Part shown: piece after piece, positions 2,110-38,265 of the stretch
Layout: each line of letters starts with the position of its first letter
Position numbering within the stretch: the stretch's first letter is position 1
Assembly: GCA_025057575.1 (NCBI GenBank)
Contig: JANXBO010000008.1
Location: forward strand, 1-64,000
Source of the DNA: Candidatus Caldisaccharidevorator malaysiensis
GTDB taxonomy: Bacteria > Armatimonadota > Fervidibacteria > Fervidibacterales > Fervidibacteraceae
Direction: 5' to 3'
Length of the DNA stretch: 64,000 bases
Position numbers and translations under genes: made by a program
The notes under the pieces: model-generated
What the model saw: the letters and a program-made list of their open reading frames with translations, nothing else
Told to the model about the DNA's origin: nothing
Databases searched by the model: none

Positions 2110-4017
2110 CTACTGCTGCCCCTTCAAAATTCGGACATCGCCCCTTCTTACGGTGATCCCGAGGTGGTCTAAATACTCCAGAAGGGGAACCACATATTTG
2201 CGTGAAGTAGCGACGGCGTCCCGGAATTGAGCAGCCGTAAAACTTCCCCCTTCTTTGGCTAATTGCTGAGCAAGGTTGATGGCTTCTTGTATCGTCTCTG
2301 GATGATACAAGAAATCACTCACGCGAACAAGACGTCCCGATTCAATCAGAAAACTGATAAAATCCATAGGCTGTTCCCTGTCAGGGATCAGACTCAGAAC
2401 ATCGCTCACTTCTAAAGGGGCAAATTTTGCCTGTCGGCATTTTCTTTCTATCATTTGCGCTAACGACTCTTGATCAGCACTTAATCGGACAGAGTGATCG
2501 GGCAGCCGGACGACTTCCCTTTCTATCACGATCGTTCCCTGACGGCTCAGTTCGGCTAATAGCGATTCAAAGTCTTCGCTTCCTATCTGACTACCGACCA
2601 ACGAGCGCAGACCCTCTTTTGACAGACCCCGCCTCAGGGGTCGCTCCTGGTGGTATTGGTTCAGTTGCCGAACGATCCGATTTTTATAATCTTCCAACCA
2701 CTTCGTTGACAGAAGGGTCCCTGTGCTCAGAATTTTTGCATCGCCCCTTGCAACGACTTCGTGAACAAGAAGTTGAATTGCTGAAGGATTGAGAAACAGC
2801 CTTTGAGTCAACTCTCCAACGGTGACGCCATCGCTCCTTTCGTGAATCAAGGCAATAAGGTAACTGATGGGACTCTGTCCTTTTTCTGACCACGATGACG
2901 GTTGTTGTTTTCTCCCCGAGGTTGCGGTTCCGTTCATATCTACAATCACACCGCCGGCGATAGTGGTCAGGGGTGACAAGGCTCTGATGATCACGCGATC
3001 ACCCCAGGCGCAGGCGATGGGCTTATTGAGATGAAACATCACACAGGTTTCTTCCCCTGGTGTCAAAGTTTTCCTTTCTGGCACGTTGAGAATCGCCATT
3101 CTCTCCGAAGTTGCGTGGTGGAAATGAACTAAAACACCGTTTCTAATCGGTCTGCTGATGGCGGGTAGCACCCTCAACTGGACAACAATCTTATCGGTTA
3201 CCTTCAAAGGAACCTCACTGACGATCACATCACCCCTTTTGATGTCCTCCCTTTCCAGTCCGGTCAAATTCATCGCTGCCCGTTGACCGGCGAAGGCTCT
3301 TTCCACTGGGCGACCGTAGGTATGGAGCGAGCGGACTCGTGCCTTAAACCCCTGAGGCTGAACGATGACTTCCTGTCCCACGCTGATCGTGCCCGAGAAG
3401 ATGGCACCCCTGGCGATCGTGCCGAAACCAGCCTTGACAAAAATGTCATCAATCGGGAGACGGAAGGGACGGTCGGTATCCTTCGGGGGCACGTCGGCGG
3501 CACCAGCATCCATCACGGCAAGGAGGTTGTCCAGTCCCTGCCCCGTGACAGCGGAGACTTCCACGATGGGGGCGTTTTCCAGAAAAGTGCCCCGCACAAC
3601 CGTCCGAATGTCGTCCTTGACCAGTTCCAGCCAGTCCGCATCAACGATGTCTACCTTGGTAACGACAATGATCCCCCTTTTCGTCCCCAAAAGGTCTAAA
3701 ATCGCCAAATGTTCTCTCGTTTGGGGCATCACGCCTTCGTCAGCGGCGACAAGGAGAAGGACCAGGTCCATTTCAGAGGCGCCCGCCAGCATATTGTGGA
3801 CGAATCGTTCGTGACCCGGAACATCCACGATTCCCGCCACGGTCCCGCTGGGCAACGTGATGTGGGCAAAGCCCAGGTCAATGGACATTCCCCTCGCCCG
3901 CTCCTCGGGATGCCGGTCCGTTTGCATCCCCGTTAACGCACCGATGAGGGTTGTCTTACCGTGATCGACGTGCCCCGCTGTCCCAATGATCAGATAGCGA
4001 CTCGTCTCTTTTGCCAT
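2110..4017 (-). CDS. selB: Selenocysteine-specific translation elongation factor SelB
   Basis: GTAGHVDHGKTTLIGALTG...DRHPEERARGMSIDLGFA...DVPGHERFVHNMLAGA, plus a C-terminal winged-helix region. 635 aa. Confidence 0.93.
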   Translation of the reverse strand: MAKETSRYLIIGTAGHVDHGKTTLIGALTGMQTDRHPEERARGMSIDLGFAHITLPSGTVAGIVDVPGHERFVHNMLAGASEMDLVLLLVAADEGVMPQTREHLAILDLLGTKRGIIVVTKVDIVDADWLELVKDDIRTVVRGTFLENAPIVEVSAVTGQGLDNLLAVMDAGAADVPPKDTDRPFRLPIDDIFVKAGFGTIARGAIFSGTISVGQEVIVQPQGFKARVRSLHTYGRPVERAFAGQRAAMNLTGLEREDIKRGDVIVSEVPLKVTDKIVVQLRVLPAISRPIRNGVLVHFHHATSERMAILNVPERKTLTPGEETCVMFHLNKPIACAWGDRVIIRALSPLTTIAGGVIVDMNGTATSGRKQQPSSWSEKGQSPISYLIALIHERSDGVTVGELTQRLFLNPSAIQLLVHEVVARGDAKILSTGTLLSTKWLEDYKNRIVRQLNQYHQERPLRRGLSKEGLRSLVGSQIGSEDFESLLAELSRQGTIVIEREVVRLPDHSVRLSADQESLAQMIERKCRQAKFAPLEVSDVLSLIPDREQPMDFISFLIESGRLVRVSDFLYHPETIQEAINLAQQLAKEGGSFTAAQFRDAVATSRKYVVPLLEYLDHLGITVRRGDVRILKGQQ

Positions 4018-6841: not shown

Positions 6842-7948
6842 ATGCAATGGGTCCAGTTAGACGGCAGCATCGGGGAAGGGGGTGGGCAGATTCTTCGGAC
6901 CGCCCTCTCTTTGTCAGCGCTGACGGGTCGTCCCTTTGTAATTCGCAACATTCGTGCCGGTAGGAAGAACCCCGGACTCCGACCCCAGCATCTGACAGCC
7001 GTTCGGGCAGTTCAGCAAATCTGCTCGGCGACCGTCACGGGTGCGACCGTTAATAGCACCGACCTTCGGTTTGAACCAGGACCCATTCGGTCCGGTGATT
7101 ATCTGTTTGACATCTCTGCCGAGCAGACCAGTGCCGGATCCATTGCCCTCGTGTGGCAGACAGTCTTTCCCATCCTCCTCTTCGCTGATGCACCTTCCAC
7201 TGTCGGGTTCCTTCGCGGCGGCACCTGCGTTCCCTTTAGTCCCCCCATTCCCTACATCAGCAAGGTTTTTCTTCCTATGGTAGAAAAGATGGGGGTGCGC
7301 ACCACCCTGGAAATGAGGCGAGCGGGCTGGTATCCCCGAGGGGGAGGGCAGGTTTTCAGCCGGATTCAGCCTGTTTCTGATCCTCTGCGCCCCATTCTCT
7401 GGACCGACAGGGGCGATTGTGACGAGATAGAAGTCCTCAGCCTCTATTCCCGACTTCCCCCATCGGTTGGGCAGCGCCAAGCCAACAGAGCCTTCCAGCG
7501 ACTGAAAGAAAAAGGAATGTCAACGAAAACAATAAAGGTTCTGGTCCAAGAAGAACCCGCTGACTCGCCGGGAACTTGCCTGTTAATTGTCTGTCACTTT
7601 CCTGCTGGCAGGGCTGGTTTTTCCAGCCTGGGGGCTCCCGGCAAGCCTGCCGAGACGGTCGCTGATGAGGCGGTGGAATCCTTTGCTGAATACTGGCACA
7701 GAGATGCTCCGGTAGAAAAGCACCTTGCCGACCAGTTGCTCCTTTTTATGGCGTTAGCCGAGGGAACTTCTAAAATTACGGTCAGTCATCTGACGAGCCA
7801 TTCGGAAACCAATATCCAGGTGATTCAGGCATTCATTGGGGAAAGGTGCCGAGTCGTCGGGGAAAGGGATCAAGCGGCAACCATAGAAGTATCAGGGATC
7901 AGTCTGTTGTCCCAAAATAGAAGACGAAAAGAGCAGACGCATCAGTGA
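6842..7948 (+). CDS. rtcA: RNA 3'-terminal phosphate cyclase
   Basis: LDGSIGEGGGQILRTALSLSALTGRPF...GLRPQHLTAVRA...GWYPRGGGQV; C-terminal HLTSHSETNIQVIQ. Confidence 0.92.
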   Translation: MQWVQLDGSIGEGGGQILRTALSLSALTGRPFVIRNIRAGRKNPGLRPQHLTAVRAVQQICSATVTGATVNSTDLRFEPGPIRSGDYLFDISAEQTSAGSIALVWQTVFPILLFADAPSTVGFLRGGTCVPFSPPIPYISKVFLPMVEKMGVRTTLEMRRAGWYPRGGGQVFSRIQPVSDPLRPILWTDRGDCDEIEVLSLYSRLPPSVGQRQANRAFQRLKEKGMSTKTIKVLVQEEPADSPGTCLLIVCHFPAGRAGFSSLGAPGKPAETVADEAVESFAEYWHRDAPVEKHLADQLLLFMALAEGTSKITVSHLTSHSETNIQVIQAFIGERCRVVGERDQAATIEVSGISLLSQNRRRKEQTHQ

Positions 7949-33577: not shown

Positions 33578-34126
33578 TCAGAAAATCCTTTTAAGAAGGT
33601 CTCGGAGAGTCTTCCTTGCCCGATGGAGGCGGGACTCCACCGTTCCGATGGGAATGCCCAAGGTCTGACTGATCTCAGAGTAGGTAAGACCCTCCACTTC
33701 CCTAAGGATAAAGACGGTCCTGAGTTCTTCTGATAGTTGGTTAAGCGCCCAGTTGAGGGCATCCGCCTTCTCCATCCGGTCCAGGTCGGGTTGCTCCACA
33801 AGTTCCTGCTCGCCGTTCCCTTCCTCGTTCGCAACTTGGGTAAGGGGACTTGATCGGCGCATCTTTGCTCGGCAGCAATTGATGACAATTCGGTAAAGCC
33901 AGGTGCGAAAGGACGATTCACCTCTGAAGGACGAAAGAGAGCGGTAGACCTGGAGAAGGGCATCCTGAGCCGCATCTTCGGCATCTTCTCGGCTCCGAAG
34001 AAGGTGGTAAGCGAGCCGATAGCAAAATCCCCAGTAGGAGCGGACCAGTTGGTGCCAAGCATAACCATCACCCTGTCGGCACCGATCCAAGAGTCGCTCC
34101 TCGTCCACACAGTTAGTCCTCCTCAA
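33578..34126 (-). CDS. RNA polymerase sigma factor, ECF subfamily
   Basis: LLDRCRQGDGYAWHQLVRSYWGFCYRLAYHLLRSREDAEDAAQDALLQVYRSL...FRTWLYRIVINCCRAKMRR...LRTVFILREVEGLTYSEISQTLGIPIGTVESRLHRARKTLRDLL. Confidence 0.95.
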   Translation of the reverse strand: MRRTNCVDEERLLDRCRQGDGYAWHQLVRSYWGFCYRLAYHLLRSREDAEDAAQDALLQVYRSLSSFRGESSFRTWLYRIVINCCRAKMRRSSPLTQVANEEGNGEQELVEQPDLDRMEKADALNWALNQLSEELRTVFILREVEGLTYSEISQTLGIPIGTVESRLHRARKTLRDLLKRIF

Positions 34127-34248: not shown

Positions 34249-34712
34249 CTACTCTCCGACTTGATGAAGGACCGAGTCAAGCAGTTGATCGCTAAAATAA
34301 CGCCCTTTGCTGCGCAATTCCAATAGTAGGGGCTTCAAGGCTTGAACGACACCGAGTTTTTTCCCGTATTTCAGTATTCCCAGCGTGCCCACGACCTCAA
34401 GACCGAGGTCAGACGCCCGGCGCCGGCAGACCCTATCATCGGAAAGAATAAGAGTTTTTCGGCACAAAGCCAGCGCCAAGGCGTGAGTCTCCCCCGCTTC
34501 GGCACTCAAATGGGTCCTTTCTACTACTCTTTTCAACCAATCGGGGTTGACGGGTTCTACCTTAACCGAATCTATCTTTTTAGTTCAGGACCAATCTCGT
34601 CGCGAACTTTTTCGGGCACTAACACAGTGCCGAACAGGTCCTGAAGGAGTGCCTGCTGACCAATCCGGAGCAAGGATATGAGGACATTGGCGTCACTGAC
34701 CGGTTCCTTCAT
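34249..34712 (-). pseudogene. DUF3368/PIN-domain toxin-like gene disrupted by a single frameshift
   Basis: Minus strand from ATG 34712: MKEPVSDANVLISLLRIGQQALLQDLFGTVLVPEKVRDEIGPELKR*. The frame changes at an A5 run (34577-34581), continuing KKIDSVKVEPVNPDWLKRVVERTHLSAEAGETHALALAL...LILSDDRVCRRRASDLGLEVVGTLGIL to 34249. Confidence 0.75.
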
Positions 34713-34719
34713 TCCCGCG

Positions 34720-35835
34720 CTACCCGTAGCGCCGAAGCCGGTCAACTTCCGACTGTAACTCGGTCTCTGTTACGCGGAAATAGGGAATACCTCGCTCCTC
34801 TGCCAGTCGGAGAAATTGTTCAAGAGTGAGAAATGAACTTATTAATGGACTCCCGGACACGGCTGCGACCGCTTCGCTGAGACTCACTGCTTCATCATCG
34901 TAGAGGTCCAGTATTGTGTCCAGGGCGGCACTACAGACTCGAATTGGCGAGATAGAAGGGTCTACCTTACCGAGGACCGTTTGCCCCCGGGGATAGTTCT
35001 TGAAAGGTTTCTGGTCTTTAGCCCACGGTTGCATGTCCTCCCGCCAATACCAGCGGATGGAATCTAAAAAACCCGTCATTGGGTCAATGTTGAAGATGGC
35101 TACGCAGTGACCTCCTTCCTGGAACAGGCGAGCCAATTGCTCCTCTGGCGACTTTGTTTCAACAAGAGGGCTCATCTGGGACCGGTCCAAATGAAGTAAC
35201 TGAGACCTAAAGCCCATTTCATTGATGCATTCGGCAAATATCAAGACAGCGTCGTGGTCTCTGCCCTTCAATTGCTCCTTTTTCTTCTGCCACTTTCGCA
35301 CGGCTCTTTGGATCGGATCCACCTCAGCGGCTTGGGTTGTGTGGACTTCAGCGAAGCACAAACGCCCTCCAACAATGAAACTCAAATCGGGTCCCTTTTT
35401 GTCAGGATCTTCTTCGGGATCAAAGCAAATCTGTTTTGCGCCCAGCCTCATTAGATGACGCGCCAGATATATTTCTGAGAGGGTATCCCAAAACGCACTG
35501 CCGCCCTTCTGCGTCAAACTTTTCGCCTTTTTATCGCAGTTGCGGACGTTCGCCCAATCCAATGTCTTGAGCGTATTTTCCAATGAGTTCAGCAACGGGT
35601 TGGGTGATGGCAACAGCGCCCAGGAAAGAAAACTATGAACCCCTCTGGCCCTCTCATCCGGCTCTTCACCTTTCTCAACCCAGTCCAGCAAAGCCTGCCA
35701 TTCTTGTTCTTGTAGTTCTGTAATTTCCCGCTTCACCCACTCAGGATCAAAGAGTTCACTTAATTTTTCGTAGCGGAAAAGGTTGAAAACAATAACGGTG
35801 ATAATTTGATCTCGGGTAAATGTGATTCTCGGCAT
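34720..35835 (-). CDS. Hypothetical protein: putative PD-(D/E)XK-like nuclease core with UPF0175-like C-terminal segment
   Basis: Core ...FWDTLSEIYLARHLMRLGAKQICFDPEEDPDKKGPDLSFIVGGRLCFAEVHTTQ. C-terminus AVSLSEAVAAVSGSPLISSFLTLEQFLRLAEERGIPYFRVTETELQSEVDRLRRYG resembles UPF0175 antitoxins. ORF is open from 35937. Confidence 0.6.
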   Translation of the reverse strand: MPRITFTRDQIITVIVFNLFRYEKLSELFDPEWVKREITELQEQEWQALLDWVEKGEEPDERARGVHSFLSWALLPSPNPLLNSLENTLKTLDWANVRNCDKKAKSLTQKGGSAFWDTLSEIYLARHLMRLGAKQICFDPEEDPDKKGPDLSFIVGGRLCFAEVHTTQAAEVDPIQRAVRKWQKKKEQLKGRDHDAVLIFAECINEMGFRSQLLHLDRSQMSPLVETKSPEEQLARLFQEGGHCVAIFNIDPMTGFLDSIRWYWREDMQPWAKDQKPFKNYPRGQTVLGKVDPSISPIRVCSAALDTILDLYDDEAVSLSEAVAAVSGSPLISSFLTLEQFLRLAEERGIPYFRVTETELQSEVDRLRRYG

Positions 35836-37698: not shown

Positions 37699-38265
37699 AT
37701 GCGTTGCTTCCTTGCCATTGAGTTAGATGACTTAGTGCGGGACCGACTATCAAAAGTGATTGACGATTGGAGCCAGCATAAGGCGTCCGTCAAATGGGTG
37801 GAACGGGACAACCTTCACCTAACGATCAAATTTTTGGGTCAGTTCCCCGACGAACGCGTGGACGACTTATCCCAGCGCCTGCAAGAGGTGTGTCGGTCGG
37901 TTCAACCCTTCGTCTTCAATGTGGAAGGAACGGGTGTTTTCCCCGACTGGAAACGACCACGGGTCATCTGGATTGGGGTCAGGGACGGCGAACTTCTTAA
38001 ACAAGTTCACAAAAAGGTTGAGGGCGTAACGAGTCGGTTGGGTGTAGAAAGAGAGGAGCGCCCCTTTCATCCCCACATCACCGTTGGGAGGGTGCGAACT
38101 CATCAAGAGATCAAGCCCCTAATGGACGCTGTCAAGAGCCTAAAGGACGAGCCTTTCGGTTCGGTTCGGGCAGATCATCTGACTTTCTTTGAGAGCCGGC
38201 TCACCAGTCAGGGACCCATCTATCGCGTCATCAGCCGATTCGCCTTCGGCGGGGAGAGCGGGTGA
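37699..38265 (+). CDS. thpR: RNA 2',3'-cyclic phosphodiesterase (2H phosphoesterase)
   Basis: MRCFLAIELDD...WVERDNLHLTIKFLGQ...RPFHPHITVGRVR: both HxTx motifs present. Confidence 0.92.
   Translation: MRCFLAIELDDLVRDRLSKVIDDWSQHKASVKWVERDNLHLTIKFLGQFPDERVDDLSQRLQEVCRSVQPFVFNVEGTGVFPDWKRPRVIWIGVRDGELLKQVHKKVEGVTSRLGVEREERPFHPHITVGRVRTHQEIKPLMDAVKSLKDEPFGSVRADHLTFFESRLTSQGPIYRVISRFAFGGESG

Follow-up and report, generated by a model that had tools for sequence, protein, structure and literature searches.

A UPF0175-like antitoxin tail on a large N-terminal domain without family assignment, encoded upstream of a frameshifted DUF3368 PIN toxin gene

Gene order at the locus and the split PIN gene

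The locus lies on the minus strand of a 64-kb window, which denotes the whole stretch of DNA that was analysed and belongs to a 2.78-Mb Armatimonadota genome in 102 contigs. Its first gene encodes P0001, a fused protein of 371 aa (34720..35835, minus), which according to the ORF listing and its translation starts with an ATG at 35835 and has a stop codon ending at 34720. The original prediction had assigned a 405-aa ORF to 34720-35835. The frame and the peptides quoted for it proved correct, but these coordinates correspond to 371 aa; the longer form has to begin further upstream, at a GTG (35937) that falls within the first part of the divergent recN frame. Since each of the remaining five frames across this stretch contains 11–23 stops, the P0001 frame is not a product of chance. 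The locus is flanked by an ECF-sigma-like gene (33578-34126, minus) and by the divergent recN, whose frame runs from 35903 (plus); both names were assigned by sequence reading. In the same way, a gene for a SelB-like selenocysteine elongation factor (2110-4017, minus), an RtcA-like RNA 3'-phosphate cyclase gene (6842-7948, plus) and a ThpR-like 2'-5' RNA ligase gene (37699-38265, plus) were recognised elsewhere in the window, in which no tRNA genes were found.

The GC content of the locus is 50.7%, compared with 54.6% in the window. Its codon usage matches that of the neighbouring genes less well than the neighbours match themselves, which is only indicative as the neighbours were also the training set. 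The lower GC content and the weaker codon fit are consistent with an acquired locus. In three relatives (G001, G003 and G004), the recN regions have no neighbours in common with the P0001 locus, and hence an empty site could not be defined. Repeats and terminators near the locus occurred only at chance level, and P0001 was not found in plasmids, phages or viral contigs.

Seven nucleotides downstream of the P0001 stop, at 34712, is the ATG of a DUF3368 PIN gene, which is not one intact frame. Its 5' piece (34572..34712, minus) carries the first two acidic residues, in the motifs SDAN and RDEI, and was identified from its sequence and by a match to the PADLOC family PDC-S70 (E 7.7e-8). The 3' piece (~34249..34569, minus) is in a different frame and carries the last two (AGE, SDD). 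It matches PF11848 with 44.1 bits (E 1.8e-11, cut-off 27.3) and PDC-S70 with an E-value of 5.6e-19, which bears out the earlier description of a downstream DUF3368 PIN remnant. Comparison with intact PIN genes places a -1 frameshift near 34577 (34570..34584, minus), where a short A run is followed by an in-frame TAG. Each piece thus retains only two of the four acidic residues, and activity is unlikely for either of them. No further DUF3368 gene was detected in the genome, so the split gene is the sole one found. PDC-S70, which both pieces match, is a candidate defence gene that encodes a PIN nuclease domain; most such candidates are without experimental validation (PMC12988326).

It is rather unlikely, though worth weighing, that the PIN toxin is not broken at all and that an assembly error or slippage at the A run conceals a complete toxin-antitoxin pair. 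The shift falls within a short A run, both pieces are clean, the family's four acidic residues can all be read across them, and the genome is a 102-contig assembly. The run, however, consists of five A only, which is short for transcriptional slippage. The neighbouring recN, thpR-like and ECF sigma genes are open, which argues against an assembly error since an assembly with such neighbours is not generally error-ridden.

The N-terminal domain and its possible relative

The N-terminal ~290 residues of P0001 (34966..35835, minus) have no family match in Pfam, NCBIfam, PADLOC or PHROGs. The original prediction placed a PD-(D/E)XK-like nuclease core in this region, and a degenerate core of this kind is possible at residues ~113-205 (E121, D150, E163-V-H165). 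Queried alone, the core matched no Pfam family even at E-values up to 10, and a search of the PDB by sequence returned no convincing match to P0001. Single-sequence AlphaFold2 predicted a helix at 113-130, strands at 134-138, 152-155 and 158-163, and a helix at 174-189, in models of low confidence (pLDDT 37.5 and 57.8). The order of these elements is compatible with the alpha-beta-beta-beta-alpha-beta core of PD-(D/E)XK proteins, albeit in poor models. Foldseek found no match with the core model, as expected from the low confidence of the latter. Among 20000 shuffled versions of the core, 545 (2.7%) contain the bare E...PD...ExH pattern, as do 47 of 1069 ORFs compared (4.4%); the motif is not significant, i.e. 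not beyond chance. A longer PD-(D/E)XK-style pattern matches P0001 and none of the shuffles, but it was composed after the sequence had been seen.

Among ~1,330 genomes searched, one possible relative of the domain was found. This protein, P0005, has 358 aa and comes from a genome in the Acidobacteria-centred set. Its E-value is 7.5e-5 for its own genome and about 0.1 across all genomes searched. The Smith-Waterman score between P0001 and P0005 is 100, against a maximum of 66 in 2000 shuffles and of 85 among 800 other ORFs. The match covers the P0001 core and includes FW, A..L...G and PDLS..V.G..CF.E. Within it the Asp and the Glu of the putative catalytic set are kept, a Gln stands at E121, and ECY replaces EVH, with Tyr at the position of H165. 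P0005 has neither a UPF0175 tail nor a PIN neighbour. This single remote sequence thus lacks two of the features that the original prediction had expected homologs to share, the PIN neighbour and the conserved ExH site, which speaks in part against that prediction. It hints at a domain that also occurs independently, with a catalytic set that is not conserved. At L133 1386-5219, P0005 adjoins two more large genes without a Pfam family in an apparent genomic island, and a further gene (173-1213) contains a restriction-nuclease-like 'VVIEAKL' stretch.

L003 is a weak genome match (E 0.0056). L002 turned out to be a metallo-beta-lactamase-fold protein, L101 is out of frame with a formate dehydrogenase-like gene on the same strand, and L102, L103 and L104 were weak genome hits rejected on inspection. 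A scan of genome contigs with core patterns gave 25 pattern matches and no relatives. The core-pattern alignments A1–A3 are hand-made variants of the P0001 core, which served for the choice of patterns only and do not constitute evidence. A close relative of the whole of P0001, as a sign of selection on the fusion, was not found in the ~1,330 genomes.

A functional PD-(D/E)XK-type nuclease, with His in place of Lys and itself an effector, is an improbable reading of the N-terminal domain; P0001 would then combine nuclease and PIN antitoxin in a single polypeptide. The predicted order does resemble that of the superfamily: E121 lies in a helix, P-D150 precedes a strand and E163-V-H165 stands at the end of the next strand, followed by a helix. 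Moreover, PDLS..V.G..CF.E is kept in P0005. In contrast to known members of the superfamily, however, P0001 lacks a profile, sequence or fold match and has the His for Lys exchange, and even its sole candidate relative has no equivalents of E121 and H165, so that catalysis appears not to be conserved there. With a bare motif that is common by chance, the nuclease core is unproven.

The UPF0175-like tail and its occurrence elsewhere

The C-terminal module of P0001 comprises residues ~308-371 (34720..34914, minus). In Pfam, PF03683 (UPF0175) matches the whole protein with 16.1 bits (E 0.0089) and the last 76 aa with 20.8 bits (E 0.00031), both under the 27.9-bit cut-off. A profile HMM trained on 30 Armatimonadota UPF0175 proteins scored 22.2 bits against the last 81 aa, whereas the top score of 2000 shuffles was 9.5 bits. 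Positions 12-58 of this HMM pair with residues 309-364, a span that holds the entire helix-turn-helix and the C-tail. Likewise, hhalign aligned residues 307-365 with UPF0175 14-63 at a probability of 80%. The resemblance to UPF0175 that had been noticed by eye is therefore recovered by profile searches with the phylum HMM and hhalign, and below the cut-off by Pfam. By homology the tail is a true but divergent UPF0175 (COG2886) module. A 7-residue insert, SPLISSF, is located within its helix-turn-helix. This insert may alter DNA binding or abolish it, whereas the C-terminal portion, which presumably binds the toxin, is kept.

It would be quite improbable for the resemblance to be convergent or that of a generic helix-turn-helix, with P0001 an unrelated orphan gene that happens to precede a PIN remnant. 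The sub-threshold Pfam score would fit such a view, as would the generic UPF0175-like helix-turn-helices on unrelated proteins, namely the TatA-like tails of L113 and L114 and the kinase-like L115 and L116. On the other hand, the alignment reaches past the helix-turn-helix into the C-tail (FLRLAEERGIPYFRVTETELQSEVDRL), the score is far above that of the shuffles, and P0001 sits before the PIN gene where a cognate antitoxin is normally located.

For this position, 48 DUF3368 loci from many phyla were sampled, 3 of which are cut by contig ends. A UPF0175 gene with an open frame of 77-161 codons ends at or near the PIN start in 43 of the 48, and 2 show none. P0001 thus occupies a toxin-antitoxin slot, as had been predicted. 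None of the 43 readable loci contains a P0001-like fusion, nor was one found in surveys of UPF0175 in 292 Armatimonadota and 301 Chloroflexota genomes. P0001 shares with UPF0175-DUF3368 (COG2886-COG2405) VapBC-like pairs the gene order, the operon spacing and a UPF0175 module encoded immediately before a DUF3368 PIN gene. It differs from them in its length (371 aa versus about 80-100), in the replaced N-terminal part and the helix-turn-helix insert, and in the frameshift of its PIN partner.

UPF0175-like tails also occur on other proteins. The surveys found XRE-ImmA/IrrE proteins with such a tail (L042–L045, L051, L117, L119, L121 and L122), most of which precede a PIN-like gene. A Pfam check of L119 and L051 showed both HTH_3 and Peptidase_M78, with the UPF0175-like tail just under the cut-off. 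These proteins resemble P0001 in being long and in having such a sub-threshold tail before a PIN gene. Unlike them, P0001 has no XRE helix-turn-helix and no Peptidase_M78 domain (neither HTH_3 nor Peptidase_M78 was hit in Pfam), and HExxH is absent from its sequence. In the literature, COG2886 is described as a PIN-associated helix-turn-helix antitoxin, and fusions of COG2856 and Xre share operons with PIN toxins (PMC2701414). The recurrent tail on XRE-ImmA/IrrE (Peptidase_M78) proteins may be the PIN-binding part of antitoxins of the COG2856 type.

A second precedent is L055, whose frame ends at 3828, upstream of a DUF3368 PIN gene, and combines a Phd/YefM N-terminus with a UPF0175 C-terminus, both above the Pfam cut-offs. 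Judged by its domains it is a hybrid antitoxin. As in P0001, the N-terminal domain on the UPF0175 tail has been swapped; unlike P0001, L055 is small and its partner is a known DNA-binding domain. Further UPF0175-like segments were noted in Chloroflexota, at the extreme C-terminus of TatA-like proteins as a helix-turn-helix (L113, L114 and L129) and as an N-terminus joined to a histidine-kinase-like region (L115 and L116). L034, L035, L037, L040, L125 and L126 were rejected as fusions and left out of the count: in these GC-rich genomes, ordinary antitoxins lie within long open frames.

Since Phd/YefM and XRE-ImmA/IrrE proteins encoded next to PIN genes have also acquired UPF0175-type tails, the principle of the fusion has precedent. 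The original prediction of an undescribed variant holds in that the particular combination in P0001 is unusual, but to call the antitoxin fusion itself undescribed is too strong, because other fusions with UPF0175 tails adjoin PIN genes. The new element would be the N-terminal partner only, and the UPF0175 tail is apparently a portable module.

Proposed origin and present state of the locus

We consider it probable that this is a type II toxin-antitoxin locus of the UPF0175-DUF3368 (COG2886-COG2405) type with an unusual antitoxin N-terminus, most likely decaying and with its toxin lost. The usual N-terminal part of UPF0175, of ~30 residues, would have been replaced by a ~300-residue domain without a family, possibly of a degenerate PD-(D/E)XK fold. 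The UPF0175 tail would originally have blocked the active site of the PIN toxin, the product of the next gene in the operon, by binding to it, and the large N-terminal domain may have served in DNA binding, sensing or dimerisation. At present the frameshift parts the catalytic acids of the PIN domain, which presumably leaves the antitoxin without an active toxin. As the PIN gene is frameshifted, the locus is probably in decay or retains only its antitoxin.

A further reading, in which a nuclease-fold effector with its own PIN antitoxin tail would restrain the PIN ribonuclease and, on disturbance of the pair, act as an additional nuclease, is very unlikely; the locus would then be a module of two toxins that share one tail.

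For the toxin-antitoxin locus proposed here, the fusion is a single-genome case, and both a maintained fusion and a transient accident are compatible with it. The impact is limited so far, as the fusion is known from one genome, the toxin is broken and the nuclease core is unproven. The N-terminal domain without family assignment is a concrete target to characterise. If the fusion is maintained, the UPF0175 tail would be a portable PIN-binding module that is found on very different proteins, which would bear on the diversification of PIN toxin-antitoxin systems.
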